Source: a virus. From it: a stretch of DNA of 35,887 nt. The stretch is taken from positions 1 to 35,887 of IMG/VR virus record IMGVR_UViG_3300045999_005601. One strand, given 5' to 3'. The notes below the pieces were generated by a model. That model saw only the letters and a list, made by a program, of their open reading frames with translations, made no database searches and was not told where the DNA came from. Below, piece by piece: positions 22,043-35,887 of the stretch. Position 1 is the stretch's first letter; each line of letters starts with the position of its first letter. The position numbers were made by a program, and so were the translations under genes.

Positions 22043-22793
22043 GTTCACCTACCAACGAGGCTCTACTGATTCTAATATGTTTGAAGTATGCAGGAGCAAC
22101 CTTCTTACAAATTTTAAGAAGATGAATTGCAAACTCTCTAATCTCAGCATCTGCTGTTTTTCTAGCACGTTGGTCTATGATATTTAGAGCAGCGCGTAGG
22201 TTCATAGAGAATACTAGTTCTGTATCCATGCCATTCTCTAGATACCCTCTGGCGGCACCTCTAGCTTGCTTTCTGGCATAAGCACGCTCTAGACCTCTAT
22301 CAACTAGATGAGACTCAATTAAAGTAACAAGCTTGCTGTATAAGTGTCTATTGCTAGACTTTACTACAGCTACATGCTGCATAATTTCAGAGAATTCATT
22401 AGGAGAAATATCATTCATTACATCTTTAAGAATAGGATGCGCATGAACAACTGAACCAGATTCGTCGACAAATCTTGTAGAACGTTGAGAAACTGCTGTA
22501 CCGACGCGATGGCGAATGAGTTCATGTGTAAATCCTCTACTTACGTTTTGAATTAGAAGGTTTATTGTAGCGTGCTCAAGTACGCTACCATGCCCCACCA
22601 TCCTAATATGCTTGTGGTAATCAGAGCTAGGTCTACCAACGCCGAAAGAATCATAGCAGATACGCCCTGCAATTTCTGTAAGTTGCTCCGCATCAGTACC
22701 TTTAAGTTGGTCGTCTCTAGCGTCATTAGGAATTGCCGTTCTCTGTAGATTATCCCAGTTAATTACTGTATGTCCAATCAAGGTTACTATCAT
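22011..22793 (-). CDS. thyX: FAD-dependent thymidylate synthase ThyX
   Basis: ThyX makes dTMP from dUMP with methylenetetrahydrofolate, FAD and NADPH. The 260 residues include the ThyX core: ICYDSFG, GHGSVLEHA (H68, E73, H74), FTHELIRHRVGTAVSQRSTR with the RHR signature at 94-96, and the C-terminal substrate-binding helices (ENGMDTELVFSMNLRAALNI). The serine of the family motif sits at 105, one residue further from RHR than in the usual RHRx7S spacing. The gene is coupled to a 54-residue gene upstream (ATGA) and overlaps the dNTP hydrolase gene downstream. With these and MazG it forms a nucleotide-supply cluster. Confidence 0.96.
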   Translation of the reverse strand: MIVTLIGHTVINWDNLQRTAIPNDARDDQLKGTDAEQLTEIAGRICYDSFGVGRPSSDYHKHIRMVGHGSVLEHATINLLIQNVSRGFTHELIRHRVGTAVSQRSTRFVDESGSVVHAHPILKDVMNDISPNEFSEIMQHVAVVKSSNRHLYSKLVTLIESHLVDRGLERAYARKQARGAARGYLENGMDTELVFSMNLRAALNIIDQRARKTADAEIREFAIHLLKICKKVAPAYFKHIRISRASLVGEHVVKPARIRI

Positions 22794-22954
22794 TCAACCT
22801 TCGCTTTCTTTACGATAAGAAAATGTTGAAATCTTTCATCTTCAGGAATCCTGTCAAACGACCTATCACCTTTAATACGCTTGGCAACTTCCTGTGGAGT
22901 CAGCGATGTACGGACAGTAATCCTGTGCTTTGTTTCAGTTAGAACAATACGCAT
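22790..22954 (-). CDS. Small basic protein of 54 residues
   Basis: This gene is easily missed because of its length. The start codon has a strong SD (AAGGGA, four bases away), and the stop overlaps the ThyX start as ATGA, which is a normal gene junction in this operon. The sequence MRIVLTETKHRITVRTSLTP begins with beta strands and continues as a helix (PQEVAKRIKGDRSF), with a charged end (FLIVKKAKVE). No family is recognised. It exactly fills the gap between MazG and ThyX, so it may be a small accessory of nucleotide metabolism or a general early protein. Confidence 0.75.
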   Translation of the reverse strand: MRIVLTETKHRITVRTSLTPQEVAKRIKGDRSFDRIPEDERFQHFLIVKKAKVE

Positions 22955-22955
22955 G

Positions 22956-23285
22956 TCATCCCTTATTTAGATAGTCAGGTGAGTAACCGTTAGGGTGCCG
23001 TTGTCTTAGCTTTTCAATATTACCCTTCATTACTTCTTCTAGGGAGTATCCGTTAACATGGCAGGCTACAGCTAGACTCCATGCAATATCGCCTAATTCA
23101 TGAAAAATCTTATCTTTTAACTCTTCATATTTCTCAAAAGAAATATTATGATATTTCTGTTTTTTAACAATGTCTACATACTCACCTACTTCACCTGCTA
23201 ATGATAGGGCACTAGGGATTTTATCTCTAGCGTATTCATTTCCTGCTGTTTTTAGTGCAGCTTCTTGATATTCATTAGGTGTCAT
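22956..23285 (-). CDS. MazG-like nucleotide pyrophosphohydrolase
   Basis: MazG-fold enzymes hydrolyse NTPs or dNTPs to the monophosphate and pyrophosphate, and phage versions can change nucleotide or alarmone pools. The 109-residue protein keeps the four-helix metal site: E32 and E35 in LAGEVGEYVD, then E63 and D66 in FHELGDIAWSLA. D38 in the first motif may also contribute. ATG 23285 is chosen because GGAGG lies five bases before it; an in-frame ATG at 23303 has weaker support. The start overlaps the previous stop as TAATG. It sits near a second dNTP hydrolase-like gene and ThyX, and upstream of the resolvase-like gene. Confidence 0.88.
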   Translation of the reverse strand: MTPNEYQEAALKTAGNEYARDKIPSALSLAGEVGEYVDIVKKQKYHNISFEKYEELKDKIFHELGDIAWSLAVACHVNGYSLEEVMKGNIEKLRQRHPNGYSPDYLNKG

Positions 23286-23485
23286 TATACCCTCCATCCC
23301 CAATTTTCAGTTATAAAGTCTTCTAAAAGAATTTCATCTGAACAAGAGCATTTACCTCTATGATTTGAGGTAGAACTAGTGTTATGAACTTCTCTCATTT
23401 GTTTAATAGCTTCTTCTTCAGAAACTTCTTCTACTCTGTTTTTATCAGGCTCATCTTCATCGTAAACGTCATATTGAATTGGCAT
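23285..23485 (-). CDS. Small acidic hypothetical protein
   Basis: Function unknown. The 66 residues are strongly acidic at the N-terminus (VYDEDEPDKNRVEEVSEEEA). A CSCS motif lies in the middle, and the C-terminus ends ENWGWRV. It overlaps DNA polymerase at its start and the MazG gene at its stop, so it is part of the same translationally coupled set. A weak SD-like GAAGAAG precedes the ATG. No motif supports a function. Confidence 0.58.
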   Translation of the reverse strand: MPIQYDVYDEDEPDKNRVEEVSEEEAIKQMREVHNTSSTSNHRGKCSCSDEILLEDFITENWGWRV

Positions 23486-25175
23486 ACTTCTTCATTGCTC
23501 CTAGGTTCTTACCAACTTTAACGTCTACTGTCATAGGTACAGAGAATTGCGGTTGGTCTTCCATTCTAGCTTTAATTTCAGGTACAATAGAATCTACAAT
23601 TGACGTAGGAATATGGAAGTAAACAGCATCATGCAACTGTAGAATCATTCTTGACTCTGGTAATTCTCTGTCGATTCTAACTACAGCACGGTTTACCATC
23701 TGTGCCACACCACCTTGAATTATTTGATTAAATGCTGTGTGAGGCTCCTGTTCTGGTGAAGTGTAGTGACGGCGTCTACCGTTCCAATACTGGACATATC
23801 CACGTTCTCCTGCTACTTTTGTGGCATGTCTAGCAGTAAGCTTATACCCTGGGAATCTATTATCGTACTTAGCTAGGAAGTCTTTAGCTTTAGCTACTGA
23901 GCATTTAAGCTGCTCGCTAAGTCTTTGAGCACCTGCACCGTAGATAGTAGCAAAGTTGATAGTCTTAGCTGTTTGGCGGTCAATACCTGCTTCATCGGCG
24001 ACGAATTGGTGAATATCCTTACCTGCCCAAATAGACTTAATCAATGATTCTTCTTGAGTGTAATGTGCAGCTAGACGAATCTCAGCCTGAGAGTAATCTA
24101 TCTCCACCAAAGAGTAATCTTCATCTGCCTCAATCATTTCCTTAACACGTTGCTCTTTGCTCCAACGTGGCATCTGCTGAAGGTTAGGGTCTTTGCTAGT
24201 CCATCGCCCTGAACGTGCTCCAATAGTATTTAGATTACTTCTAATCTTTGAATCGTCACATACCCATTCTGTACGATATGGGCGATAGTAAGTATTCAAA
24301 GCTTTCTCGTAATCTTTAAAAGTAAGAATCTTGTCAATGATTGGCTTCTTACCTCTAAGTAAATCTAGAGTCTCATACTTGGCATCTGGAGTACCTAGAT
24401 ACTTAGCAATAGATGTAGGGCTAGACGGATTAATTTGTCTGTTAGAATCTTTCTGCAACTCAAGATAAAGCCGCGAATGTTTCATCGCGGCTTCAGACTC
24501 TAGCATCCGTAGAGTATCTAGGTTAATCGGTACGCCACGCTTTTCCATCCTGAAAGCTGCCATAGTCAACAGATTTAATTCATGCCATAGCTCTTTCATT
24601 TTAGGTGAAAGAGTTCTGTTTAGAAATTCATCCATATCCCATGCTAGAATACAATCTTTCTCACAGTATGGAGCAACTACATGTGCAGGAAGACGCCACA
24701 TTTCTCCTTTATCGTAACCCCATCCCTTCAACTTTTCTTCTAGCTCAGCCTCTTCTTTGGCGGAATCATCGCCTAAGAATGCAGAGCCTGCTACCTTCAG
24801 TGATTTTACCTTAGTTTCATCCATAAGGTACAGACCATTCTGTACGTCAATAACGTAAGGCTCTCCGTTGCTACCGTGAACGTATTGAAACCTTAAATCA
24901 AACTTGTAATTAGCACCAATCTGAATTGGTATTCTACCTACAACATCAAGAACCTGAAACTTCTTACCTTCGTCTAGGTTATCTGAATTAGAGTGAGAAA
25001 AAGGAAAGTAAAAAGACTTACCACGTCCATCATATAGACCTAGTCCACAGATAACGTCTCTCTTCTTGACCGTCTTCCAAGGGTTAAACCCTGTGGTTTC
25101 TAGGTCAATAGCAGCCTTATCAAGGCTGGCGATATAGGTAAGCACGTCTGAGAGATTATCGCTATTTACCAGCAT
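23469..25175 (-). CDS. DNA polymerase, family A (with 3'-5' exonuclease)
   Basis: This is the replicative polymerase. The 568-residue protein (from ATG 25175; GAGG five bases upstream) has an exonuclease domain with DxE in AIDLETTG (D24, E26), a second site at N89 and D93, and a third at Y170/D174 (YCEKDCILAW). The polymerase motifs follow: A at D360 (VEIDYSQAEIRLAA), B as RQTAKTINFATIYGAGAQ (R400, K404, F408, Y412), and C as LQLHDAVYF (H515, D516). F408 corresponds to the E. coli Pol I F762 position. Motif C has HDA where Pol I has HDE. No 5'-nuclease domain is present. It follows the SSB and Sak4-like genes in transcription order. A longer in-frame start at 25202 is unlikely. Confidence 0.97.
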   Translation of the reverse strand: MLVNSDNLSDVLTYIASLDKAAIDLETTGFNPWKTVKKRDVICGLGLYDGRGKSFYFPFSHSNSDNLDEGKKFQVLDVVGRIPIQIGANYKFDLRFQYVHGSNGEPYVIDVQNGLYLMDETKVKSLKVAGSAFLGDDSAKEEAELEEKLKGWGYDKGEMWRLPAHVVAPYCEKDCILAWDMDEFLNRTLSPKMKELWHELNLLTMAAFRMEKRGVPINLDTLRMLESEAAMKHSRLYLELQKDSNRQINPSSPTSIAKYLGTPDAKYETLDLLRGKKPIIDKILTFKDYEKALNTYYRPYRTEWVCDDSKIRSNLNTIGARSGRWTSKDPNLQQMPRWSKEQRVKEMIEADEDYSLVEIDYSQAEIRLAAHYTQEESLIKSIWAGKDIHQFVADEAGIDRQTAKTINFATIYGAGAQRLSEQLKCSVAKAKDFLAKYDNRFPGYKLTARHATKVAGERGYVQYWNGRRRHYTSPEQEPHTAFNQIIQGGVAQMVNRAVVRIDRELPESRMILQLHDAVYFHIPTSIVDSIVPEIKARMEDQPQFSVPMTVDVKVGKNLGAMKKYANSI

Positions 25176-25182
25176 TTTTACC

Positions 25183-25626
25183 TCAAAATGGAAGGTCTTC
25201 ACCTGTTACAATTGGACCGTCAGCATGAGGCTTAACAGACTTAATCTTTGCGTTAGTGTATTCGCCAGACTTCTCATGAATAATGTTACCCATTAGGCGA
25301 CGACCAACTAACTTCTCTTTGTTAATCTTAATCTTATCACCCGGCTTAACGTCAGGGTCTAGAGCCATTACAATATTAGCTAGCTTCCACACAGCAGTAG
25401 GAAGCAGGCTATACCAATCTTTGGTGGTTAGCTTACCTTGCCGCCAAGTAGCCTCGTATTGTGGATTACCTGAACTAGAGGTTGTCTTCTCTAGCTTGGC
25501 TAGAACTAGCTCTTGCCAACCCTTCTCAATAATCTTGAATTCACGCTTTCCAGTATCTACTGGAATTTCAATCTCTACTTCGCTGTCGTCATCTGAAAAG
25601 TTATCGTCTTCTGGGTTGATGCTCAT
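25183..25626 (-). CDS. Phage single-stranded DNA-binding protein (putative)
   Basis: The 147-residue protein has an acidic N-terminus (EDDNFSDDDSEVEIEI) and an OB-fold-like core with GWQELVLAKLEKTTSSSGNP, KLTTKDWYSLLPTAVWKLAN and KLVGRRLMGNII. It ends in GEDLPF, which resembles the acidic-hydrophobic tip of bacterial SSB proteins (DDDIPF) used to recruit partner enzymes. It lies between the Sak4-like ATPase and DNA polymerase, where recombination and replication proteins would need such a partner. ATG 25626 is preferred because AAAGG lies nine bases away. The core also matches a common phage pattern of DUF669-like proteins, so the SSB call is probable rather than certain. Confidence 0.75.
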   Translation of the reverse strand: MSINPEDDNFSDDDSEVEIEIPVDTGKREFKIIEKGWQELVLAKLEKTTSSSGNPQYEATWRQGKLTTKDWYSLLPTAVWKLANIVMALDPDVKPGDKIKINKEKLVGRRLMGNIIHEKSGEYTNAKIKSVKPHADGPIVTGEDLPF

Positions 25627-25628
25627 GT

Positions 25629-26405
25629 TCATTGACCTTTCTTTAGGAACGGACGAATCTTGTCGTAAATAGTAGCTAGATTAGGCTTGCCTTTTTCTAG
25701 TGTAATAATCTCGCCGATAGCTTCAGCGATATCTTCTCTACGGGTCTTAGCTCTAATCTTAGAGCGAGGACGGGTTAGAGCCTTAATAACACCCTTATCT
25801 TCGTACAGGTACCATGAGAAGTCAAGGTAAGAAATAAGGGTTTCAGCGACCTTGTCAGATAGGGCAGGTAGTACCTCAATGATATTACCTTCCTTATCCT
25901 TATTTGTCTTACTGATAGCTGTAAGAATTACGTTCTTCTTGCAACCTCTTAGTAGAGACATTAGCCGCTTTTCACGGTTTGTATCCTTACCATAATGCTT
26001 CTGCTCTAGCATATCCTTATCTTTGGCTCTATCGTCATTGATAAGGATGTCTTGCAGAGATTTAGTCTGGAAGTCAGACCATGAATCAATTACAATTGTG
26101 TTTACCTCTTTCCAGTGTGGTAGAGGATTAGGTGCTAGAACTTCATCTAGAAGTTCCTCAAGATGCCTTGCAATATCAGGTACCTTGTTACCCTTACTAT
26201 CTCTACCAATATCAACTACCATAATATTGTCATTGCTAGGTAGTGATAGTAGACCGTCTTCAATATTTACAATAAGCATCTTACCTAGGTCTGGATGCTC
26301 TGCACCAGAAGCAGCAAGTGTAGTCTTACCTATACCCGGTGGGCTCCAAAACAAAGCCTTGAACCATCGTTCTGTGCTATCTAGTTTATACGGTACAAAT
26401 GCCAT
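25629..26405 (-). CDS. Sak4-like RecA-fold ATPase (recombination)
   Basis: This is a probable phage recombinase that pairs or anneals single-stranded DNA together with SSB. The 258-residue protein has the P-loop SPPGIGKTTL (residues 21-30) and Walker B VNTIVIDSWSDF (D107), with a RecA-like core in between. The region RLMSLLRGCKKNVILTAISK fits the following strand, with a sensor-like polar end. The short length and the P-loop just after a WxALFW strand match Sak4-type proteins. Its downstream neighbour is SSB-like and its upstream neighbour is Cas4-like, a common recombination set. A Rad52-like or generic AAA ATPase is less likely. Confidence 0.8.
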   Translation of the reverse strand: MAFVPYKLDSTERWFKALFWSPPGIGKTTLAASGAEHPDLGKMLIVNIEDGLLSLPSNDNIMVVDIGRDSKGNKVPDIARHLEELLDEVLAPNPLPHWKEVNTIVIDSWSDFQTKSLQDILINDDRAKDKDMLEQKHYGKDTNREKRLMSLLRGCKKNVILTAISKTNKDKEGNIIEVLPALSDKVAETLISYLDFSWYLYEDKGVIKALTRPRSKIRAKTRREDIAEAIGEIITLEKGKPNLATIYDKIRPFLKKGQ

Positions 26406-27412
26406 TACTCTTCTGTCCCTTCGATGAATTGAACTTCTACAAAGCTAGCTTCACTCTTACGCTTATAGTTAGTCTTTAGTAGAAACTCAGTATCACCATC
26501 TTTAAGTGATTCTGTGCAGTATTCAAACATTGAGCAATTCTTGCAGTTGCTCCAATTCATACATCGTACAGATTCTTCACCTGATTCCTTAGCCAGAAGA
26601 ATACTCTTAGCAGCAGGAAGAATAATACGATTCCAGCAGTTTGAAATCTCGTCAGTAGTTCTTGAAACTTTTGTTTCATCGATGTCAAACCATACATGTT
26701 TGTTTAACTTATCTTTCATTTCCAGATAATCATCTGGATTTTGACCACAAGACTCTACAAACTTTGCGTAAGTCTCCCAGTCTGTCATGATATCTTTGGT
26801 GGATACCTTGCCAGACTTAATGATTTCAGGTTCTTTTGGTAGAAGAGGTTTAATCTGAAGCTGCCTAGAACCTTGTGTATGAATACCTCTAGAGTTTAGA
26901 ACTAGACCTTGGTAGAAAGCCATCTGAAGATTTACCATTTCAGACTTGAATGGTCTGAATGTCTTACGGAACTTATGGTCAATTACCCAAATACCAGTGT
27001 TATCTTCAGCTACCCAGTCTGGTGTACCTTGGAATAATATATCATCTACTACCATCTGTAGAGTCTCTTCTACTAGATGATTCTTATATCGAAACTTATC
27101 CCTAACTCTAGGCCAGATTCGATTGGCTACAGCTAATGCTTCATAGCCAATAGCAATTACGTCTTTAGTCTCTGACCCGATTACATCATTCTCAAAATGC
27201 TTCTTAATCTCAGCCTTAACCGAGGCTTCAGCATCTTCTGATGAACCGCCAAGAATCAGAGTCTTCATTGCGGCGTGGCCTAGAGTACCAAAAGCAATCT
27301 CTTTGGCGGTACGTCTTGGTACAATCTCTTCAATGTAGTTTAACTGGTGAAGATAGTTACACCGTAACCAAGTAGAAATCTCAGAGAAGTGAATAGGTTC
27401 TGTATTACGCAT
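26405..27412 (-). CDS. Cas4/RecB-like nuclease with Fe-S cluster motif
   Basis: This is a probable DNA exonuclease making single-stranded ends for the adjacent Sak4-like recombinase. The 335-residue protein has a PD-(D/E)XK core: H46 in FGTLGHAAMK, D132 in FQGTPDWVAED, D145 and K147 in IWVIDHKFRK, and the Q-x3-Y motif (Q163, Y167). The cysteines of a Cas4/AddB-type iron-sulfur cluster are visible: one near the N-terminus (C18 in STWLRCNYLH), and C290, C293 and C299 near the C-terminus (NCKNCSMFEYC). C284 is an additional cysteine. GGAG lies just before the ATG. No CRISPR array was seen in the window. Confidence 0.85.
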   Translation of the reverse strand: MRNTEPIHFSEISTWLRCNYLHQLNYIEEIVPRRTAKEIAFGTLGHAAMKTLILGGSSEDAEASVKAEIKKHFENDVIGSETKDVIAIGYEALAVANRIWPRVRDKFRYKNHLVEETLQMVVDDILFQGTPDWVAEDNTGIWVIDHKFRKTFRPFKSEMVNLQMAFYQGLVLNSRGIHTQGSRQLQIKPLLPKEPEIIKSGKVSTKDIMTDWETYAKFVESCGQNPDDYLEMKDKLNKHVWFDIDETKVSRTTDEISNCWNRIILPAAKSILLAKESGEESVRCMNWSNCKNCSMFEYCTESLKDGDTEFLLKTNYKRKSEASFVEVQFIEGTEE

Positions 27413-27413
27413 A

Positions 27414-29582
27414 CTACTCCATTGGAATTATTTCTTCAAGTTTGATTGTTGAAAGAGCCTTGTAAGCTACTCTCTTAGTCTGGTTAATCTCTACTTCATA
27501 CTTCTCAAGTACGCCGATATCATACAAATCTCTTAGATACTGTGTGCATGTTTGGATACCTCTACCAGTAATCATTGCTAACTGGTCTGGACACACACCA
27601 ATATCTGACTTGTATATAATCTTGAAGATTTCAAACTTAGACCAAGGCTTAGTTACATCATGCCTCTTCGGATTATCCTTAAGAAGTTCAACCTGCCATT
27701 CCTTAATAGGACTACCACCTTCAACAAAAGGAATCTTAGTGATTCTGTAATCTAACAACTCAGTATCAGGTGCAATGACTAGGTCTTGCAACCATCGCTG
27801 AATCCTTAGATTCTTCTGTGTCTCTGGATGGAACGTTCTATTAAGAATCTTCTTGAATGGATTCTTAGGTAGACTCTTTACTTGTTTTGGTTCTGGAACA
27901 TCAATATCACTCTCTGTAAGGATAATTGATTTAGGTGGACGACCCGGACCGCGTTTCGGTTTGTCGTCATTCTTTCTACTGACTTTATCTTCTGACTCTT
28001 CTTTGTCGGTAGAATCAACCAGACCTTCAGACACTTCATATGTCCATGTCTCCTTATCATCAATGTTGAATGATAGTGGAATAGCAGCTATATTATCTGA
28101 AGACTTGAAGTGTCTCCTGATTTTAATTGACTTGTCACCTTTAGGTTCAATCTGCCAGCCAGTCTCTAGGAACGCATTTAGGAATTGGCTACCCCATGCT
28201 CGTGTACGGTCTTGTGCTTGACCTTTATTAGTATGGTGGGCAATTACGAAACTAACACCATACTTATCGCGAAAGTCTTTGAAGATGAACATATCTTCAA
28301 CAAGCTTTGCCATGAAGTCTTCAGTACCGCCAAGAGAGTAAAGCGGGTCTAGGATAATTAGCCTAGGCTTTAGCTTCTTGATGGCTTCTTCAAGGTCGCG
28401 AATAGAATCTTTGTCTTCTAGATTAAGACGTCTATCAGGGTGAATGTATAACGGAATCTTTTCTGGTACTGAAATACATACATCGCCGTTATCATCTACT
28501 TTAGGTAGTTCTTCATCTTGATACTTTGAACGTCTTACAAGAGTAATACGTTGTGCTGTTTGACCAGCGTAATCCTCTTGCTGAACTAGGAAGACAGGCC
28601 CTTTCTTTTCTGGATTAACAGAATACATTCCTAGAAATGGCTTACCTGTAGCAACAGACAAAGCTAGGTCAATCAAGGTCCACGTCTTGTAGCTACCCGG
28701 AGGAGACACTACCATTGCAATAGTGTTATCAGGTAGCCAATCTTTGATAATCCAATCAACAGGCTTGTCTCCCCATTGGTACATGAAATCATCAAGACCC
28801 ATGAGAGAGAAATCCTTTCCACCAAAACCTGCCTCTGTAGCATTTCTGGTGGTCTTATTGTTAGCTTGTTTTCTATTTGTAGTCTTGTAGACTGACTTGA
28901 TTGTAGTTTCTAACTCTGTCAGAGGAAGACGTTCTTCGTTCTTCTGATTCCAGTTCTTCAGTAGCTGGATAGTAATGTCTTGTGGTAGTTCTTTGCTGGC
29001 AAAAAACCCTGCCAACTTGGACAGGGTTTGATTTCTTTCGCCAGATTTTGCACCATACTCAAGAGTATTACTTACCCAGTCTTCAGGGTTAGTACGTTCA
29101 TGTTCTACTGTACCTGATTCTGAATATAGAATCTTAGGACATTCAGCCGGTTCACCTAGTTCAAGCCATTCATAACTACCCTTTGGTGTGACTGATGGTG
29201 CAGCATGGCAGAATCCACCATCACCTCTAACGTCAACTCCTGGGAATAAACCTACTCTATTTGATACAGGCTTACCCGGATGCTTGAAGTAGATATGACA
29301 ACCGCCTGACGGTGTCATTGCTACCATACCAGATGGGAATCTCTGCATCATTTCAGAGACTGAACCACCGTGCTTAGGGTCAACGTCAATAGCAACCAAC
29401 CCTGAGATAGCACCAGTAATAATCGCTACGTTGACGTCTTTGCTGAACCATTCCTTTACGAAGTCTACGCTTTGTCTTTCAGACTGATACTTAGTCCATG
29501 CTGTAGCAGGAGTTTTAGTATCCTTACGAATCGGAATCACATTCCATCCGTAATCATTGTAGGCTAAGACTTCTTTTAGCAT
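27414..29582 (-). CDS. Primase-polymerase with RepA-like helicase domain
   Basis: This probably primes and unwinds replication. Residues 1-150 are a PF09250-type bifunctional DNA primase/polymerase domain: GWNVIPIRKDTKTPATAW, D66 and D68 in VAIDVDPKHGG, H96 in SGGCHIYFKH, D117 in VDVRGDGGF. A helical linker leads to a RecA/RepA-like ATPase with Walker A SPPGSYKTWTL (293-303), Walker B RLIILDPLYSL (D412) and HHTNKG (449-454). An AT-hook-like KPKRGPGRPPK (541-551) follows, and then a C-terminal winged helix (GVCPDQLAMITGRGIQTCTQ). The 722 residues therefore combine priming, ATPase and DNA-binding parts. GAGG gives the SD. Confidence 0.9.
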   Translation of the reverse strand: MLKEVLAYNDYGWNVIPIRKDTKTPATAWTKYQSERQSVDFVKEWFSKDVNVAIITGAISGLVAIDVDPKHGGSVSEMMQRFPSGMVAMTPSGGCHIYFKHPGKPVSNRVGLFPGVDVRGDGGFCHAAPSVTPKGSYEWLELGEPAECPKILYSESGTVEHERTNPEDWVSNTLEYGAKSGERNQTLSKLAGFFASKELPQDITIQLLKNWNQKNEERLPLTELETTIKSVYKTTNRKQANNKTTRNATEAGFGGKDFSLMGLDDFMYQWGDKPVDWIIKDWLPDNTIAMVVSPPGSYKTWTLIDLALSVATGKPFLGMYSVNPEKKGPVFLVQQEDYAGQTAQRITLVRRSKYQDEELPKVDDNGDVCISVPEKIPLYIHPDRRLNLEDKDSIRDLEEAIKKLKPRLIILDPLYSLGGTEDFMAKLVEDMFIFKDFRDKYGVSFVIAHHTNKGQAQDRTRAWGSQFLNAFLETGWQIEPKGDKSIKIRRHFKSSDNIAAIPLSFNIDDKETWTYEVSEGLVDSTDKEESEDKVSRKNDDKPKRGPGRPPKSIILTESDIDVPEPKQVKSLPKNPFKKILNRTFHPETQKNLRIQRWLQDLVIAPDTELLDYRITKIPFVEGGSPIKEWQVELLKDNPKRHDVTKPWSKFEIFKIIYKSDIGVCPDQLAMITGRGIQTCTQYLRDLYDIGVLEKYEVEINQTKRVAYKALSTIKLEEIIPME

Positions 29583-29600
29583 TATTTCCTCTATCTAATG

Positions 29601-29677
29601 TGGCGCGCGGTACTGGATTTGAACCAGTGACCCCCTGCTTAGAAGGCAGATGCTCTATCCGACTGAGCTAACCGCGC
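29601..29677 (-). tRNA. tRNA-Arg (anticodon UCU)
   Basis: On the minus strand the acceptor GCGCGGU pairs with ACCGCGC, followed by G and an encoded CCA. The anticodon stem and loop CUGC-CUUCUAA-GCAG gives the anticodon UCU, which reads AGA and AGG. The T-arm CUGG-UUCAAAU-CCAG is normal. AGA is the favoured arginine codon in most window genes, so the tRNA probably helps late translation. A small inverted repeat GGGAG/CTCCC lies just upstream at about 29680-29702. Confidence 0.97.
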
Positions 29678-29710
29678 ACAAGGGGAGCCAAGGGCACTCC
29701 CTATGCTAAA

Positions 29711-29983
29711 TCACTCAGCTACCATCGTGACTTCTACAACATTCTTGAATTCCTTTGGAAGAGGTAGCTTCTTCTGACGGAACCGTCCCTTAATCAAGGT
29801 ATTGTAAGTCTTACCTAGAGACTTGGAATTTAGTAGAGAGACAACCTTAGTGTAAGGTACTCGATAATATCGGTATCTAGCATCCTTAAATACTAGGTCG
29901 ACGTCACAGAAGAAGCCATCAACTTTCTTAATACCGAAAGCCTTAACTAGAGAACTTGTCTTGTTTGGTGTGTAGTAGTTCAT
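29711..29983 (-). CDS. KTSC-domain-like small protein
   Basis: The 90-residue protein contains ARYRYYRVPYTKVVSLLNSK followed by SLGKTYNTLIKGRF. This resembles the KTSC domain, a small fold often found near lysyl-tRNA synthetase-like and nucleic-acid proteins but of unknown function. The N-terminus is short and basic and the C-terminus ends in a strand (NVVEVTMVAE). ATG 29983 is chosen over TTG 29989 because AAAGG lies six bases before it. It lies just upstream of the tRNA-Arg gene in transcription order. The KTSC call is by pattern and is moderate in strength. Confidence 0.6.
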   Translation of the reverse strand: MNYYTPNKTSSLVKAFGIKKVDGFFCDVDLVFKDARYRYYRVPYTKVVSLLNSKSLGKTYNTLIKGRFRQKKLPLPKEFKNVVEVTMVAE

Positions 29984-29985
29984 CT

Positions 29986-30318
29986 TCAACCTTTACTATA
30001 ACCGTAGATTTCTTTTCGTACTAGGCACATTTTACCAGTTGCAATTAACCATAGATTAAGGAACTGCATTAGTTCATTCTTACCCTTCTTGCTAATTGAA
30101 TGCTTGAAGAATTCACGATGAACAGTAGCAATATGCTTAGATTCAAGAGCATACTTACGTCCATCAGAACGTGTTGGTCGCTTTGCCTTTGGGCTAATCT
30201 TGGTAATGCTGTAGGTAACTTGGTTGTCAACCTCTACATATGCTAGAGTACCAATTAGCTGACCGTTTAGACCATGGAAATGTGAGAACTTAGGTGTCAT
30301 AGCTGTATCAATCGGCAT
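29986..30318 (-). CDS. Hypothetical basic protein
   Basis: Function unknown. The 110-residue protein is basic. It has a beta-rich start (LIGTLAYVEVDNQVTYSITK), a lysine/arginine patch (PKAKRPTRSDGRK) and a helical end (KGKNELMQFLNLWLIATGKM). Nucleic acid binding is plausible from the charge only. AAGGA lies eight bases before the ATG, and the start overlaps the previous gene by 11 bases. Confidence 0.58.
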   Translation of the reverse strand: MPIDTAMTPKFSHFHGLNGQLIGTLAYVEVDNQVTYSITKISPKAKRPTRSDGRKYALESKHIATVHREFFKHSISKKGKNELMQFLNLWLIATGKMCLVRKEIYGYSKG

Positions 30319-30496
30319 TACTTTTTTCCTTAATGAACAGTGGAGTATTCTTTACAATGTCAGCAGAGACTTCATATGCCCTAGCTTCAGAGATATTACA
30401 ATTCTTAAAGCTAGCCCTAGCATACTCCATTAGAGCATCGTGAAGTTCCTGCTTATGTTGCATCACTTCTTCAAGACTTAGACCGCTTACCTTCAC
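30308..30496 (-). CDS. Small helical hypothetical protein (GTG start)
   Basis: Function unknown. The 62-residue protein is almost all helix (LSLEEVMQHKQELHDALMEY, ISEARAYEVSADIVKN). It starts with GTG 30496, supported by AAGGTGA about six bases upstream, and overlaps the previous gene's end by 26 bases. A shorter form from ATG 30463 is possible. It may be a small regulatory or structural partner, but nothing indicates which. Confidence 0.55.
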   Translation of the reverse strand: MKVSGLSLEEVMQHKQELHDALMEYARASFKNCNISEARAYEVSADIVKNTPLFIKEKSNAD

Positions 30497-30698
30497 AAAT
30501 AGTCACCTTCATAGTTTGTGTACCGTCATCGTTCTCTTGAGGGAAAACGAATACCACTACATCCTTTAGATTGATAGTCTTGTCTTCACGAGCGCCACCA
30601 GAGAAGTAGTAAACCTTACGTTCGCGGTCAATCTTTTCGCGGGCCATGAACTTGTGTAGTGGCTTGGCATTCTTTTCAGTCTTTGTTTCTTCTGACAT
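30471..30698 (-). CDS. Small hypothetical protein downstream of the helicase
   Basis: Function unknown. The 75-residue protein has a Lys/Glu-rich N-terminus and a compact beta-rich body (KVYYFSGGAREDKTINLKD, VVFVFPQENDDGTQTMKVTI). ATG 30698 is preferred because AAGG lies about seven bases before it; ATG 30704 would sit directly on the SD. It follows the SNF2-like helicase gene with overlapping codons. No catalytic motif is seen. Confidence 0.6.
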   Translation of the reverse strand: MSEETKTEKNAKPLHKFMAREKIDRERKVYYFSGGAREDKTINLKDVVVFVFPQENDDGTQTMKVTICEGKRSKS

Positions 30699-30700
30699 AT

Positions 30701-31948
30701 TCATACCTTCAGTGTGTCTACGGTCTGGTTAATTAGCTTAGACTTTCGGATTAGTACGTTAGAGATAATCTGGTCTAGCTTACTAGACGAGATAATATCT
30801 GTAATAATAACCTTACGGTCTTGGCCTAGTCGACAAACACGGTCTTCTGCCTGTCGATTCATTGATGGATTCCAGTCTCTATCAATCATGAATAGTCGGT
30901 TACTCTTTGTTAGAGTTAAGCCTACTCCCATTGCTCCGATAGTACCAGCAATACCCTTAAGTTTTCCCTGTTGAAAATCATACACTAAAGCATTACGTCG
31001 CTCCTGTGGTACATCACCCGTAATGATTCCCCATCCGGGTTTATTGAACTTTTCAATAGCTGACTTATGAGCAGAGAAGACTACCACTGGTTCAGACTCA
31101 GCTACAGTTTCAATGTAATCTAGAGCCTCTTCAGCCTTCTGCATTGCAAGCATAGCCCGCCAAGTAGATAGATGTAGCATCGGTTGACCTTTGTCAATAG
31201 CTTCCTCTACCTGTTCTTCAGAGATATTAATATTGTCAACTAGCTTCTGGTTGACCTCTACAACGTACCGCTCCCAAGTCTTTGGTGGGATATCCTTAGC
31301 TACGTTCTCACGCTTACGTCCAAACATGAACGGACGTAGAGGATTCATTGATAGAGGATGAGGTTGACCCCATTTGATTCCGATAGGTGTCATTACACCA
31401 CGGAACATTTTCATGAAGTTATTCCATGAACCGTATGTTTCTGGGATTAGGTTTAGTGCAAACAGAATACCCCATAGGTCTGAAGGGTTAGACGTAATTG
31501 GAGTACCTGTTAGGAAGCTTGTGCTACCACCAAGAGCGTGAATCGCTAGCGTTAGCTTGTTCATTTTCTTGGTGCGTTCAGCCTTGGTAGACTTGAACAT
31601 GTGCGCTTCGTCAACTAGTAGTCGCATTTCCCTAGGAACATTCCATGTTGAAATGTTCTGAGGTAGAATGTCAGGGTTGATGATTACTAGTTCACCCGGT
31701 TCAGGGTACTTGAATGAAAGCTTACCTGATAGCACAACCGGCTTTAGGTCTGGACGTACATTAGCACACTCTGTAGCCCATACCTGCTTTACTGACTTAG
31801 GGCAGACAACCATTGCTGGCTGGTCTACGCCGATTGACATTAGCCCTTGAAGAGTCTTACCTAGCCCTGGGTCATCAGTAAGAATGTTACGACGTGATGA
31901 CTTAAGAAAGTTAATACCTTCAATCTGGTATTGGCGAGGCTGAATCAT
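30701..31948 (-). CDS. SNF2-family DNA helicase/translocase
   Basis: This is a superfamily 2 ATPase that translocates on DNA and may remodel forks or branched structures. The 415-residue protein has the SNF2 motifs: Q-motif-like PRQYQIEG, Walker A DDPGLGKT (residues 25-32), DEAH-type box LLVDEAHMFKS, motif III LTGTPITSNP, then motif V GAMGVGLTLTKS and motif VI NRQAEDRVCRLGQ. It is short, with no accessory domains, like the minimal phage and SMARCAL1-like enzymes. ATG 31948 is preferred because GGAG lies six bases before it; an in-frame ATG at 31960 has no SD. It is upstream of the replication cluster in transcription order. Confidence 0.95.
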   Translation of the reverse strand: MIQPRQYQIEGINFLKSSRRNILTDDPGLGKTLQGLMSIGVDQPAMVVCPKSVKQVWATECANVRPDLKPVVLSGKLSFKYPEPGELVIINPDILPQNISTWNVPREMRLLVDEAHMFKSTKAERTKKMNKLTLAIHALGGSTSFLTGTPITSNPSDLWGILFALNLIPETYGSWNNFMKMFRGVMTPIGIKWGQPHPLSMNPLRPFMFGRKRENVAKDIPPKTWERYVVEVNQKLVDNINISEEQVEEAIDKGQPMLHLSTWRAMLAMQKAEEALDYIETVAESEPVVVFSAHKSAIEKFNKPGWGIITGDVPQERRNALVYDFQQGKLKGIAGTIGAMGVGLTLTKSNRLFMIDRDWNPSMNRQAEDRVCRLGQDRKVIITDIISSSKLDQIISNVLIRKSKLINQTVDTLKV

Positions 31949-32174
31949 ACTCTTCTCCATTGTTATACAATAACTTGAACAATATTGATGAATCTCTTTC
32001 GTTCCGTATCAGAGATTCAAAGGAGTTAACAGTCCGTCTTAAGTCTGGTAGCGGTGTTGAGTTTCTTATGTCATCATGCCATGTGAATTGATGACGGTAT
32101 GTATGGTTAGGGTCATACCTGTGTGTAACTCTAGCAAAGGTAATACTACCGTTCTGTATCTTTGCTATTATCAT
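31920..32174 (-). CDS. Hypothetical protein before the SNF2 helicase
   Basis: Function unknown. From ATG 32174 the product is 84 residues, with a beta hairpin-like start (IIAKIQNGSITFARVTHRYD), an aromatic/His patch (HTYRHQFTWHDD) and a helical end. Longer in-frame starts reach 32246, but they would overlap the previous gene by about 100 bases. AAAGG about ten bases before 32174 supports the shorter form. Its end overlaps the helicase start by 29 bases. Confidence 0.5.
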   Translation of the reverse strand: MIIAKIQNGSITFARVTHRYDPNHTYRHQFTWHDDIRNSTPLPDLRRTVNSFESLIRNERDSSILFKLLYNNGEEYDSASPIPD

Positions 32175-32436
32175 TACTATTTGACCTTTCATATCTACAT
32201 TCATCGCACATGCAAAGGTCTGTAACCTTGTGCCCTGTCTTAACATCCCTCATGTTTAACTTACCTTTACCTAGAGGTACTGCCCTTAGAGTAATAGTGT
32301 ATGAACCATCTTTGTTTTCAAAGGCATCACCTACCCTAGTCCACATTGACTTACCACTGTCTAGTTCCTCAACAAACCAGACTTCTTTAAACCTCTTACG
32401 TTCAATAGTGGTACGCTTATCTGTGTCAAATGACAT
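32146..32436 (-). CDS. Small phage protein with CxCxxC tail
   Basis: Function unknown. The 96-residue protein contains SMWTRVGDAFENKDGSYTIT and LRAVPLGKGKLNMRD, a pattern (W-x-R-x-G-x-A-F-x-N-K-D-G) seen in small early phage proteins that look like compact beta barrels. After it come CMCDEC, three cysteines that could bind metal, and a disordered, charged end. A clear SD (AGGAG, eight bases) supports the ATG. Confidence 0.65.
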   Translation of the reverse strand: MSFDTDKRTTIERKRFKEVWFVEELDSGKSMWTRVGDAFENKDGSYTITLRAVPLGKGKLNMRDVKTGHKVTDLCMCDECRYERSNSNDNSKDTER

Positions 32437-32437
32437 A

Positions 32438-32602
32438 TCAAAATCTCCTAATTTTTAGGTATGTTTCATCCATTCTTTTTAGATTATGCCACCAAATATC
32501 ATCATCAGGAACGTACAATGTAGACCCTCCTGTCTCTGAACTTCTTACAATATTGTAAGCTTTCTTCCATCGTCTCCATTGCTTACGTTCTTTATTCATC
32601 AT
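32438..32602 (-). CDS. Small basic aromatic protein
   Basis: Function unknown. The 54-residue form starting at ATG 32602 has a very basic start (MMNKERKQWRRWKKAYNIV) and an aromatic end (DDDIWWHNLKRMDETYLKI). A 90-residue version from TTG 32710 in the same frame is possible and has a GGTGG about eight bases upstream, but it overlaps another small frame. The SD for 32602 is weak. It probably binds nucleic acid or membrane, but this is a guess from composition. Confidence 0.45.
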   Translation of the reverse strand: MMNKERKQWRRWKKAYNIVRSSETGGSTLYVPDDDIWWHNLKRMDETYLKIRRF

Positions 32603-32621
32603 AGTAAGTAACCCATTTACC

Positions 32622-32714
32622 TTATATTTCAAGCATACTTTTAAATGGTTGAATGGACCAATAGTCGTATCTATTCCAGAATGACATTGATATTCCTGCT
32701 GATGTAACAAACAT
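32622..32714 (-). CDS. Possible 30-residue protein
   Basis: A short open frame begins where the preceding 25-residue gene ends (TAATG), with GGTGG upstream as a possible SD. It encodes an aromatic-rich peptide (SFWNRYDYWSIQPF). It overlaps the longer TTG form of the downstream gene, and only one of the two can be the main product. The support is the coupling alone. Confidence 0.3.
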   Translation of the reverse strand: MFVTSAGISMSFWNRYDYWSIQPFKSMLEI

Positions 32715-32791
32715 TAATCCACCATCTTTCCCATGAACCAAAAGAAACCTGCTGAAAATCCTACTAAGACAAATGCTTCTGGCCAAGACAT
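32714..32791 (-). CDS. Tiny single-pass membrane protein, 25 residues
   Basis: The sequence MSWPEAFVLVGFSAGFFWFM, followed by GKMVD, is one hydrophobic helix with a short polar end. It has one of the best SD sites in the window (GGAGG, six bases from the ATG). It lies between the tRNA-Ile gene and small early genes. Small phage membrane peptides can inhibit host envelope functions or block superinfection, but nothing here shows which. It is too short for ordinary gene finders. Confidence 0.55.
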   Translation of the reverse strand: MSWPEAFVLVGFSAGFFWFMGKMVD

Positions 32792-32806
32792 TAGGTACCT
32801 CCTGTA

Positions 32807-32882
32807 TGGTCCGCCAAGATGGATTTGAACCATCGACCTTAGGCTTATAAGGCCCACGCTCTAACCACTGAGCTATTGGCGG
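32807..32882 (-). tRNA. tRNA-Ile (anticodon UAU)
   Basis: On the minus strand the acceptor CCGCCAA pairs with TTGGCGG, then A and an encoded CCA. The anticodon arm UGGGC-CUUAUAA-GCCUA gives the anticodon UAU, reading AUA directly without a lysidine-modified CAU. The T-arm GAUGG-UUCAAAU-CCAUC is normal. AUA codons are frequent in the window's A+T-rich genes. Confidence 0.95.
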
Positions 32883-32885
32883 TTA

Positions 32886-32929
32886 AAAGAAAAGGGACAT
32901 AAGGATATTTTAACTTCCTTATGTCCCTT
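32886..32929 (-). terminator. Strong hairpin upstream of tRNA-Ile, terminator-like
   Basis: AAGGGACATAAGGA (32892-32905) and TCCTTATGTCCCTT (32916-32929) form a perfect 14-bp stem with a 10-base loop. On the leftward transcript a TTTTCTTTT tract follows the stem, as in an intrinsic terminator. It ends only a few bases before the tRNA-Ile 5' end. Termination or a processing cut that frees the tRNA are both possible. Confidence 0.7.
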
Positions 32930-33048
32930 CCAGCCTCGATTGTTTGTTGCCGCCTATGACTAGGAGAACAATCATGCTGATAGTTGATTAATTCAACTAC
33001 TCACTAATACCTACGCTAGCTTCTACTGCTTAATCGCACTAACGTATC
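32930..33048 (-). other. Noncoding spacer with nested inverted repeats
   Basis: No supported gene lies between the tRNA-Ile hairpin and tRNA-Asp. GATTGTT (32938-32944) pairs with AACAATC (32967-32973) around a small CCTA-TGAC-TAGG hairpin, and TAGTTGA/TCAACTA form a 7-bp hairpin at 32981-32999. This could be a processed RNA or only a tRNA spacer. Confidence 0.4.
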
Positions 33049-33124
33049 TGGCGAAACGGACAGGATTTGAACCTGCAATCTCCATCGTGACAGGATGGTG
33101 TTATACCAGTTTAACTACCGTTCC
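33049..33124 (-). tRNA. tRNA-Asp (anticodon GUC)
   Basis: On the minus strand the acceptor GGAACGG pairs with CCGTTTC (one G-U pair), then G and an encoded CCA. The anticodon arm CCAUC-CUGUCAC-GAUGG gives the anticodon GUC. The T-arm GCAGG-UUCAAAU-CCUGU is normal. It reads GAC and GAU. Confidence 0.95.
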
Positions 33125-33335
33125 GTAAGAATGCACGACTAAGACCCTAGTGCAATCGGGGGAGTCTTACCTACTTAGTCTTAAGTTCCCTAATGCTCAC
33201 AACATTAGGTGATGGGATATGTACGCTACCATCATCGCGGTTACAGACCCTGACATCGGGAGTATTTCTACTAGTGATTAGGTAATCTAATCTCTCTGTA
33301 ACTATACGTTCAACACATACCTGTTAAAGCGTAGG
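33125..33335 (-). other. Noncoding region upstream of tRNA-Asp with hairpins
   Basis: No convincing gene is seen in these 211 bases. A hairpin CCTAATG-CTCACAA-CATTAGG lies near 33190-33210, and TGCA-CG-ACTA/TAGT-GCA plus a distant GACTAAG/CTTAGTC pair lie at 33132-33182. On the leftward strand TTAACA, 15 bases and TATAGT (33301-33327) make a weak promoter candidate with short spacing. This could be a leader, a small RNA or a tRNA-processing region. Confidence 0.4.
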
Positions 33336-33716
33336 TCAAACCTTGCGGAGTGTTACGCTGGTACCATCACTCTCAATTGAGAGTACGTCACCCGGTTCAA
33401 AACCAAAGCCGGCTAGACCGAGGATAACGCAACGCTTATCATTGACCTTGCACTGAGTCTTGGGAAGAACCTTGAAGCCTAGCTGTTCAGCAAGTTCAGG
33501 ATTGACCTTGGCTAGACCAGCAAGAGCCTTCTCTTGCATCTCAGCAGGATGCTCTGACATAGCCTCTTGAACAGCGGCAATGTTACCCTTCATTAGACGG
33601 TAAGCCTGTTGAATTACACCAGCAGTTAGCGGGGCACGAGGGCCACGGGTACGCTTGGCGGGCGCTTCAGCAGCAGTTGACTCAGTTGAAGTTTCGACGA
33701 CGGTTGTATCTGACAT
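33336..33716 (-). CDS. AbrB/SpoVT-like C-terminal domain protein
   Basis: The 126-residue protein has an Ala/Thr/Ser-rich disordered N-terminus with a basic patch KRTRGPRAPLT and a helical middle (VIQQAYRLMKGNIAAVQEAM). The C-terminal segment (residues 95-126) reads CVILGLAGFGFEPGDVLSIE and ends VTLRKV, close to the swapped-hairpin pattern of AbrB/MazE-type DNA-binding domains. A clean SD (GGAG, six bases) supports the ATG. A transcription regulator of the early region is plausible. The AbrB resemblance is to a short motif and may be chance. It is more G+C-rich and CGT-using than the middle of the window, like its right-end neighbours. Confidence 0.6.
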   Translation of the reverse strand: MSDTTVVETSTESTAAEAPAKRTRGPRAPLTAGVIQQAYRLMKGNIAAVQEAMSEHPAEMQEKALAGLAKVNPELAEQLGFKVLPKTQCKVNDKRCVILGLAGFGFEPGDVLSIESDGTSVTLRKV

Positions 33717-33762
33717 GACTATCTCCTATATCTATCTGTTTATTTCTCTAAGCCTGAACCAT

Positions 33763-34153
33763 TCAAGCTAGAAGTTCTACGTTACCTGACCAGTTAGTGT
33801 ACCAGACCTCCCTGGGTCTTTTCTGGCGGATACACTCACTACATCCCTGACATGGTTTAGCGCACAGCGGGTTGAAGATTCCTTTCTTCAAGTCTGGTAC
33901 ATTGAAGCGCGCTACAAGTACCATATCCTCATCCCCTGTCAAGAGCCTTACTTCAGCATGACTGCCTCCCATTCCAGACGCTTTGCGATGCGCGCTAGGC
34001 CACATGCGATTGACCCTAGCCTTGAGGATTGCACCGTTTTTATTCACCTGTGCGGCGATGACGACTACACGTTCATGAGAATCGTGGCGCCATGACTCAC
34101 GGGCTAGTCGCCATAGGCGATAGAAGTACCCTCCGTTGCTTCGCTTCGTTCAT
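33763..34153 (-). CDS. CDA-fold zinc deaminase, split by a +1 frameshift
   Basis: This is a probable cytidine/dCMP-type deaminase-family protein. The catalytic body is in the frame ending at 33763: a Zn site with SHAEVRLL (H65, E67 of the joined product) and KPCQGCSEC (C101, C104), plus VVVIAAQVNKNGAILKARVN and EVWYTNWSG as in this fold. That frame has no ATG, GTG or TTG before GTG 34047, and GTG 34047 has no SD. Recognisable N-terminal helix sequence (RLWRLARESWRHDSHERV) continues upstream of it. A good SD (AAGG) and ATG 34153 lie in another frame (MNEAKQRRVL, then stop at 34097). Shifting +1 at CUU-C (34126-34123), just after GGAGGG, joins them into 129 residues. A sequence error or an inactivated gene is possible. 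It overlaps the upstream gene by 50 bases. Confidence 0.72.
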
Positions 34154-34349
34154 ATTCTTTCACCTTAAGGTATGCACGATTGATTGTCAATAGGTCATAC
34201 AGGTTAGATGGCGCGCCCTTGCCCGATGCTGACTTGACGGTCCCTACCTTTTCAATCTTAAAAAGGAGTAGCAGCGCGTCAACCTCTTTCCTGCTTAGAC
34301 CCTTTTCCTGCATAACCTGTGCCACTGTGACACAGACTGTTTCAGACAT
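34104..34349 (-). CDS. Small helical hypothetical protein
   Basis: Function unknown. From ATG 34349 the 81-residue protein is mostly helical and reads like a small HTH or a regulator of nucleic acids: VCVTVAQVMQEKGLSRKEVD (residues 5-24), DALLLLFKIEKVGTV, then NLYDLLTINRAYLKVKEYER. The SD AGGAG lies eight bases before the ATG. A longer frame to 34403 lacks an SD and overlaps more. Its 3' end carries the start of the frameshifted deaminase gene. Confidence 0.58.
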   Translation of the reverse strand: MSETVCVTVAQVMQEKGLSRKEVDALLLLFKIEKVGTVKSASGKGAPSNLYDLLTINRAYLKVKEYERSEATEGTSIAYGD

Positions 34350-34650
34350 TAAGCACGCTCCTATTCTGTTCAATGTAGCTAATGAGTAGCTGTGTATCCT
34401 CACTAGACATATATGATGGATTGTTAATCATCCAATTAACTACTGCCTTGAACACTTCCCTTGATGTAGGTGCATGACCGACCCATTCAAAGGAGCCTAG
34501 CCTATCTCTAGTGCAGACTGTAAGCCTGAACCTCCACAGTGATTCTGTGTCTCTGTCTTTGTAGACTATAAGCCTAATCTTTTCAGAGTTAGGATGCACG
34601 CTCCCTTCTACTGCCAAGTATGGCATGGGTTTAATGTCATGCGTCATCAT
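34342..34650 (-). CDS. Hypothetical early protein
   Basis: Function unknown. From ATG 34650 the 102-residue protein has a mixed fold: strands KIRLIVYKDRDTESLWRFRL and SFEWVGHAPTSREV, then helices FKAVVNWMINN and DTQLLISYIEQN. No motif is recognised. TAGG lies just before the start. It begins in the last codons of the ParB-like gene and overlaps the next gene by eight bases, so the three are translated together. Confidence 0.55.
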   Translation of the reverse strand: MMTHDIKPMPYLAVEGSVHPNSEKIRLIVYKDRDTESLWRFRLTVCTRDRLGSFEWVGHAPTSREVFKAVVNWMINNPSYMSSEDTQLLISYIEQNRSVLNV

Positions 34651-35590
34651 CGTACCTACGGTTCTTCCGTTCCATAGAAGTCTCGCCAGACTCAGCACGT
34701 TCAATCAAATCCTGCAACCCAGTCACAGACTCAGGGCTAATCATTCCAAGTACCCACATTACACCATCGGCAAAGCCATCCGGAATCTCACCGTAAGACA
34801 TATTGCGGGCCTTTGCATCCATCTCAATAAGGAACAGAATATCCTTAGTGAGTTTCTGTGATGGCTTAGTGTTCTCAGCCCTGGGTCGACCAGGACCTTT
34901 CTTTGGCTTCTCTCCCTTTGCTTCAGTAACCTGCTTACGAATTTCCTTAGCGCGGACTACATCACCGCCAAGGGATTCAGATTCAAGCTTGGCGGCAACC
35001 TCACGTTGCGTCTCAACACTATCAGCCGACAGTGTAACAGCCGCCGCAAATCCAAGTGTACCAGATTCAACCTTAGCGTGAATCTCCGGGTCCATTTTGG
35101 CGAACCTAAGCAGGCTACGGATATGCGCTTCGCTACAGTTTGCAGCTACAGCCGCGCGACGCACCTTGGATTCATCGGAGTCTGGCAGCATTTCAACAAA
35201 CTTGCACACTTTCTTAGACAGAGTCACGATAGACTCAGCCTTGCGATTTGTGTTCAAGCTAATCTGAAGTTCCAGTGCCTTTACATCATCGGCTGCAATG
35301 ATGCTAACAGGAATCTTAAGAGGTTCTTCACCTGTCTTAACGCGATTCTTATTGACCTCACGGGAGTGAAGCACACGGCGTCGGCCGTCGATAACTTCTA
35401 GACCGGCATCCGTCTTACGACAGGTAACAGCCTGAATAACCCCCTTATCGTTGATGTCTCGGACAAGATTGTCGTCCAAGTCGCCAAAGATACGGTCATC
35501 AAGTAGGTCCATCATAGGACCATCGTGAACGTCAACGCCGATGACAATCAAGTCTTCAGGAAGGTACTTATCGGTATTACGGTGCGCCAT
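34637..35590 (-). CDS. ParB-like nuclease/DNA-binding protein with AT-hook
   Basis: ParB-family proteins bind DNA and are used for partition, regulation or as nucleases. The 317-residue protein has the ParB N-terminal core: VRDINDKGVIQAVTCRK, EVIDGRRRVLH (D68 and RRR at 70-72), KIPVSII and LELQISLNTNRKAES. An HTH follows (about residues 147-163, AVAANCSEAHIRSLLRF), and then an AT-hook-like KPKKGPGRPRAEN (228-240). ATG 35590 is chosen because AGAGGG lies six bases upstream; a longer frame to 35668 has a Ser/Thr-rich, unlikely N-terminus. No ParA gene was seen, so plasmid-like partition is not supported. A role as an early regulator or DNA-maintenance factor is more likely. Confidence 0.85.
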   Translation of the reverse strand: MAHRNTDKYLPEDLIVIGVDVHDGPMMDLLDDRIFGDLDDNLVRDINDKGVIQAVTCRKTDAGLEVIDGRRRVLHSREVNKNRVKTGEEPLKIPVSIIAADDVKALELQISLNTNRKAESIVTLSKKVCKFVEMLPDSDESKVRRAAVAANCSEAHIRSLLRFAKMDPEIHAKVESGTLGFAAAVTLSADSVETQREVAAKLESESLGGDVVRAKEIRKQVTEAKGEKPKKGPGRPRAENTKPSQKLTKDILFLIEMDAKARNMSYGEIPDGFADGVMWVLGMISPESVTGLQDLIERAESGETSMERKNRRYDDDA

Positions 35591-35591
35591 G

Positions 35592-35786
35592 TTAGACCCT
35601 CTTAGGTTCAGAGAAAGAGTCAGTGTCAGGGTTGAAGTCAATGACACCTGTGATGTAGTGAATCGCAATGACCGGACTAGTGGTCACAGTCTGAAAGATA
35701 TTCCTTTCATCAAATAGCAGGTAATCGTTTTGGTTTTCTTCGTGCTTGTACGCACGTCCAGTGAGACTGTGTCGTGTCATTGACAT
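35592..35786 (-). CDS. Small hypothetical protein upstream of ParB-like gene
   Basis: Function unknown. The 64-residue protein has a basic start (SMTRHSLTGRAYKHEENQND) and strand segments (YLLFDERNIFQTVTTSPVI, then AIHYITGVIDFNPD). ATG 35786 overlaps the preceding stop as TAATG, with AAAGGG about ten bases upstream; ATG 35780 is the alternative. It is followed after one base by the ParB-like gene. Confidence 0.58.
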   Translation of the reverse strand: MSMTRHSLTGRAYKHEENQNDYLLFDERNIFQTVTTSPVIAIHYITGVIDFNPDTDSFSEPKRV

Positions 35787-35884
35787 TAGAGACTAACCCT
35801 TTCTTGAATGAGGCGGGAGTAATCCTGATTAATCTTGGCTTGCATAGCCCTTACAGCCTTGATGATATCGGCATCATCGGCCAT
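35786..35884 (-). CDS. Short helical protein at the window edge
   Basis: The frame from ATG 35884 gives a 32-residue helical peptide (MADDADIIKAVRAMQAKINQ, then DYSRLIQERVSL) that ends in a TAATG overlap with the next gene. The SD region lies outside the window. The start could also be further right, so the gene may be cut by the window end. Confidence 0.45.
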   Translation of the reverse strand: MADDADIIKAVRAMQAKINQDYSRLIQERVSL

Positions 35885-35887
35885 CCT

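Follow-up and report, generated by a model that had tools for sequence, protein, structure and literature searches.

The noncoding stretch between positions 32883 and 33335 of the window, i.e. of the whole stretch of viral DNA analysed (35,887 bases, classed as linear), is most likely an ordinary transcription-control spacer comprising a leader, a tRNA gene and a stop-signal hairpin before the next tRNA gene. Probably it forms a junction of transcription units in the leftward gene block, where leader, tRNA-Asp and spacer are followed by a terminator directly before tRNA-Ile. Strand, order, stem, U-tract and distance can be read directly from the sequence. We infer the termination itself, a site in segment A starting or boosting the transcript, and either read-through or an unrecognised promoter further downstream. 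The arrangement is tidy, not unusual. It had been predicted that so much noncoding DNA in a tightly packed genome has a function. This holds for the 14-bp stem, for which a role in transcription as an intrinsic terminator is indicated, while the proposed attenuation and origin functions found no support.

Gene setting of the noncoding stretch

The main ORFs on the + strand extend up to position 19894 and include the terminase, portal and head protein genes. The - strand block runs from 35786 to 19921 and encodes a polymerase, a primase, an exonuclease, a Sak4-like protein, an SNF2-type helicase, a Thy1 protein and a ParB-like protein. All three tRNA genes (tRNA-Asp, tRNA-Ile and tRNA-Arg) are located on the - strand. 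Since the genes and tRNAs around the noncoding stretch lie on this strand, the stretch is best read on it, too. In this direction the 126-aa gene (33716-33336) is followed by segment A (33335-33125), tRNA-Asp, segment B (33048-32883) and tRNA-Ile, and beyond the latter by a probable gene of 25 aa, more small ORFs and then the helicase. The features are:

33336..33716, - strand: 126-aa gene upstream of the noncoding stretch (ORF call)
33125..33335, - strand: segment A, 211-base noncoding leader ahead of tRNA-Asp (no ORF >30 aa)
33284..33313, - strand: putative, weak promoter-like site TTGAAC-18-TAGATT (pattern scan)
33273..33295, no strand assigned: imperfect palindrome AGTGATTAG/CTAATCTCT over the -10-like hexamer (repeat I6, 89% complementary)
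33049..33124, - strand: tRNA-Asp (GTC) (ARAGORN; Rfam RF00005, 65.1 bits)
32931..33048, - strand: spacer of segment B from tRNA-Asp to the terminator, with three weaker predicted hairpins (predicted fold)
32892..32929, - strand: predicted intrinsic terminator hairpin, 14 bp perfect stem and 10-base loop
32883..32891, - strand: U-tract of the predicted terminator, TTCTTTTAA, filling the whole interval from stem to tRNA-Ile (sequence)
32807..32882, - strand: tRNA-Ile (TAT) (ARAGORN; Rfam RF00005, 75.9 bits)
32714..32791, - strand: likely small gene of 25 aa with GGAGG in front, between tRNA-Ile and the small ORFs (sequence)
30701..31960, - strand: SNF2-type helicase, downstream; anchor for the comparison with relatives (phrog_62, Pfam SNF2-rel_dom)

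No ORF of more than 30 aa with an ATG, GTG or TTG start lies wholly within 32883-33335 on either strand, and 32858-33335 is the sole stretch of at least 60 bases lacking a - strand ORF of 30 or more aa within 3.9 kb on the upstream side of the helicase. The predicted gene-free region is real apart from tRNA-Asp, with a size of 377 bases (453 minus 76) instead of the about 330 originally given. The 126-aa gene had no PHROG match, and its sole Pfam match, YkoP, remained below the cut-off (17.8 of 27 bits). Its end contains a perfect 16-base palindrome, ACTCTCAATTGAGAGT, at 33369-33384, of a type for which we estimated by hand a chance expectation of about 0.5 per window of such size. The 25-aa product looks by eye like a membrane peptide; the PHROG search with its gene gave no match. 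In the 48 ORFs counted, ATA, AGA and GAT plus GAC occur at 11.2, 23.2 and 62 per thousand codons, respectively, and the tRNA set matches the codon use of the phage in a general way.

The 14-bp stem and the proposed junction

The inverted repeats named in the original prediction were all recovered by an inverted-repeat search: the perfect 14-bp stem at 32892-32905/32916-32929, 9 bases from tRNA-Ile, GATTGTT/AACAATC at 32938-32944/32967-32973, and CCTAATG/CATTAGG at 33189-33195/33203-33209. Among these, only the 14-bp stem is exceptional. No other perfect stem in the window is as long (loops of 3-15 bases). The maximum in 20 shuffles of the whole window was 11 bp, and none of 300 shuffles of the 453-base segment reached 14 bp. 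The interval 32883-32929 folds at -21.1 kcal/mol, a value not equalled in 200 shuffles, and among 265 intervals of 120 bases on the - strand between 19900 and 35887 the one covering it ranks first in structure (z -6.0). In five fragments the hairpin had a predicted mean pair probability of 0.98-0.99.

Read on the - strand, AAGGGACATAAGGA, the 10-base loop and TCCTTATGTCCCTT are followed by TTCTTTTAA and then by the first base of tRNA-Ile. Only on this strand does TTCTTTT stand directly 3' of the stem; the + strand reads on as CCAGCC. The 14-bp stem is therefore most likely an intrinsic terminator, as judged from its sequence. A standard terminator scan, which covers loops of 3-8 bases only, missed it because its loop of 10 exceeds this limit. 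The second and third longest perfect stems in the window, at 9580-9615 and 19891-19924, are likewise terminator-shaped, carry T-runs and are located at gene ends. The former (+ strand) directly follows the gene for the major head protein, and 20 bases further on the next ORF begins; the latter lies between the two converging gene blocks. Hence, the phage seems to use terminator-shaped signals at the ends of transcripts. A further terminator-shaped hairpin with a T-run (AAACCCTG...CAGGGTTTTTTG, - strand) was seen at 29004-29029 within the primase gene; the 120-base interval over it ranks second in structure among the 265 on this strand.

Intrinsic terminators are common in phages. The element described here resembles them in having a perfect stem with a T-run immediately behind it on the strand that is transcribed, and in the two more such signals at gene ends. 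It differs from them in the 10-base loop compared with the 3-8 bases of the standard scan, in the A+T-rich middle of the stem and in its location, which is 9 bases ahead of a tRNA and not behind a last gene. Nothing but this placement is unusual about the proposed terminator. In the Kayvirus vB_SauM-515A1, 42 intrinsic terminators were mapped (PMC7698491).

In the proposed course of events, RNA polymerase on the - strand would transcribe the leader, tRNA-Asp and the spacer and would then meet a strong intrinsic terminator, the U-tract of which ends right at tRNA-Ile. The promoter-like site in segment A may start or boost this transcript. If transcripts end here, tRNA-Asp would carry a structured 3' trailer until it is processed, and tRNA-Ile and the genes after it would be expressed at a lower level than tRNA-Asp. 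With a terminator 9 bases ahead of a tRNA and within a single gene block, whatever lies downstream would depend on read-through or a hidden promoter; tRNA-Ile and the replication genes beyond may be fed through incomplete termination or by a promoter that escaped recognition. The expression of tRNA-Asp and tRNA-Ile is thus probably unequal, and for annotators a probable transcript end is located in a phage without close relative in the collections searched.

The pattern of the promoter-like site in segment A was defined after looking at the sequence. The same pattern was matched 12 times on the - strand across the whole window and in 4% of the segment A shuffles; it is absent from segment B and from the region between tRNA-Ile and 32707. 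A stricter scan gave no - strand site in segment A, and over 19000-35887 it gave 28 sites, fewer than the 34.3 found in shuffles. Because the pattern was chosen post hoc and appears in 4% of the shuffles, the site is only a hint of a promoter. The palindrome at 33273..33295 may be regarded as a possible candidate operator.

Remaining hairpins and alternative explanations

Segment B as a whole (32883-33048) folds at z -6.2 to -7.3, and none of the 200 shuffles was as good in the run giving z -6.2. Without the terminator the value is -2.7, with 2 of 200 shuffles as good. Among the other 264 120-base intervals on the - strand, 14 score -2.81 or lower, and the nine others starting between 32800 and 33340 rank 36th or lower of 265. 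Segment A is not exceptional (z -1.7 and -1.2); a sub-domain at 33236-33306, chosen after the fold was seen, reaches z -3.3. The folding of the remaining repeats is within the range of nearby coding sequence. With the stem excluded, six perfect inverted repeats of at least 7 bp within 150 bases were counted compared with 2.5 expected, a number reached by 10 of 300 shuffles (7 of 300 for the part 32931-33048 and 14 of 300 for 33125-33335). This is a mild excess over chance, which leaves weak room for further structure. The remaining hairpins require no special function.

These values also bear on a possible, though rather doubtful, alternative in which the terminated transcript is cut at the 3' end of tRNA-Asp and yields a stable RNA of about 160 bases (33048 to about 32885). 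Such a released structured RNA would accumulate and regulate RNAs of the phage or the host. The strong folding of the whole of segment B is consistent with this, as are the terminator at its 3' end, where bacterial small RNAs usually have one, and the fact that even without the terminator it folds better than 198 of 200 shuffles. The signal derives mostly from the terminator, however, and the remaining z is within reach of other - strand intervals. Furthermore, Rfam 15 at gathering score detected no family but tRNA, the matches in phage records all fell on tRNA-Ile among the matches listed (20 of 28), and blastn of the segment against 127 fetched loci gave nothing convincing (best E 0.2). A relaxed Rfam search returned, below gathering score, Plastid-ycf2 on the + strand across tRNA-Ile (E 8.1e-7, 40.5 of 65.7 bits), mir-1252 on the stem (E 0.45), DapZ (E 3.5) and sucA (E 4.9). 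Decayed tRNA genes in the spacers were considered as well; up to E 5 Rfam gave no tRNA match beyond the two tRNAs.

A precedent for such an RNA is found in the Staphylococcus phage vB_SauM-515A1, in which two strongly transcribed noncoding regions are reported beside tRNA genes, one of them directly following tRNA-Met (PMC7698491). As noncoding RNAs beside phage tRNA genes are thus documented there by RNA-seq, a small RNA in the present phage would be of a known kind. Like lncRNA1 and lncRNA2 of that phage, the segments described here are long noncoding stretches flanking tRNA genes in a packed genome; those comprise 570 and 525 bases with measured transcription, whereas ours comprise 211 and 166 bases and are known from sequence (PMC7698491). 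If stable, the spacer RNA would join the small number of noncoding RNAs described from phages next to tRNA genes.

It is unlikely that the stem is a processing element which marks or protects the 5' leader of tRNA-Ile within a long precursor, as a nuclease site or barrier, with an incidental T-run. Its location 9 bases from the mature 5' end of tRNA-Ile, with the predicted cloverleaf forming beside it, would suit such a role. However, the T-run behind the strong stem is confined to the transcribed strand, an arrangement that a terminator requires and a processing site does not, and no further perfect stem of 9 or more bp was found beside tRNA-Asp or tRNA-Arg.

Transcription attenuation had been among the predicted functions. 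It would mean that an alternative fold with upstream sequence blocks the terminator under some condition, as in a riboswitch, and this we consider very improbable. The leader ahead of the terminator is long, and when nascent RNA was folded up to a point short of the 3' arm, the 5' arm showed partial pairing with upstream bases (mean probabilities of 0.18, 0.52 and 0.24 with three different starts), which may slightly delay the hairpin in this model. However, forbidding the 14 native pairs made the fold 18.3 kcal/mol worse in all five fragments, and with other partners allowed both arms paired mutually or with adjoining bases, never upstream. No inverted repeat of 7 or more bp within 150 bases joins a terminator arm to upstream sequence, and no Rfam riboswitch was matched in the gathering-score or the relaxed search. 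Inverted repeats and constrained folding gave no mutually exclusive antiterminator in the full transcript.

Phage HK022 forms put RNA, in which hairpins lie upstream of a terminator in the phage transcript. The hairpins of segment B share this placement, by analogy only, and might in the same way act in cis on the polymerase, so that a modified fraction reads through into tRNA-Ile and the replication genes. This would work like put without any common sequence and is, if anything, even less probable than attenuation. Least probable of all is the predicted origin of replication, or a partition site: a ParB-like gene (PHROG, 34637-35668) lies 1.3 kb off and there are palindromes in the noncoding DNA, but the direct repeats in 32700-33750 are three two-copy sets outside the spacers (one in the two tRNAs, two within the 126-aa gene), two DnaA-box patterns have no exact match anywhere in the window, and the GC skew (1-kb steps) keeps its sign over 32-35 kb and tracks gene direction.

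The corresponding position in distant relatives

The collections scanned contained no close relatives of the phage, and searches with the ORF 12634-14115, the 126-aa gene, the primase and the polymerase each found none. The helicase search led to four distant loci, the head protein and a primase alignment to no relatives in genomes, and a polymerase alignment to at least 80 loci with 24-30% identity among the matches listed. A 49-aa piece of the polymerase (18 loci) and the primase alignment (22 loci) revealed a group that has these genes in matching order, helicase - primase - exonuclease - Sak4 - polymerase, and is too distant for covariation.

Nine contigs with the helicase and at least 2.2 kb before it were used (L112, L114, L115, L116, L118, L119, L120, L124 and L130); their replication genes show 28-41% protein identity to the window. 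Five of them are the same as L099, L096, L093, L102 and L101, L099 being the contig of L112 and L101 that of L120. Excluded were L092 (no upstream DNA), L128 (1.6 kb) and L110, L117, L121, L127 and L129 (no helicase match); L111, L113, L122, L123, L125 and L126 were outside the helicase comparison. Since several of the nine are near-identical, they represent few independent cases.

ARAGORN detected no tRNA in the relatives' sets of 4, 28 and 21 loci, and a comparable terminator was absent from all nine contigs, L120 offering no more than a weak candidate of 8 pairs. In eight of these contigs there is just one gap of at least 60 bases without an ORF of 30 or more aa. This gap measures 69-123 bases and is located upstream of the helicase at a distance of about 1 kb. 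It sits near the position of the tRNA stretch in the window and is tied to the window segment by position only. By the same rule L120 has no gap, though its contig, as L101, carries a promoter-like site there. Such sites were present in all four relatives scanned (TTGACC-18-TATAAC in L112, TTGACC-17-TATAAC in L114, TTAACC-18-TATAAT in L119 and TTGACT-18-TATACA in L101), with palindromes seen by eye near them; compared with these, the candidate in the window is the weaker one. The gene after the gap encodes a Cro/YdaS-like regulator in all three cases scanned (L099, L101 and L119); PHROG and Pfam recognised no such gene in this part of the window. Taken together, gap, promoter-like sites and regulator genes suggest that the spot is probably a transcription start region across the wider group.

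In L101 (2531-2656) and L119 (7563-7685) there seems, by eye, to be a leader before the Cro/YdaS-like gene with long hairpins of differing sequence. The L112 group, judged likewise by eye, has shorter gaps without these long hairpins.
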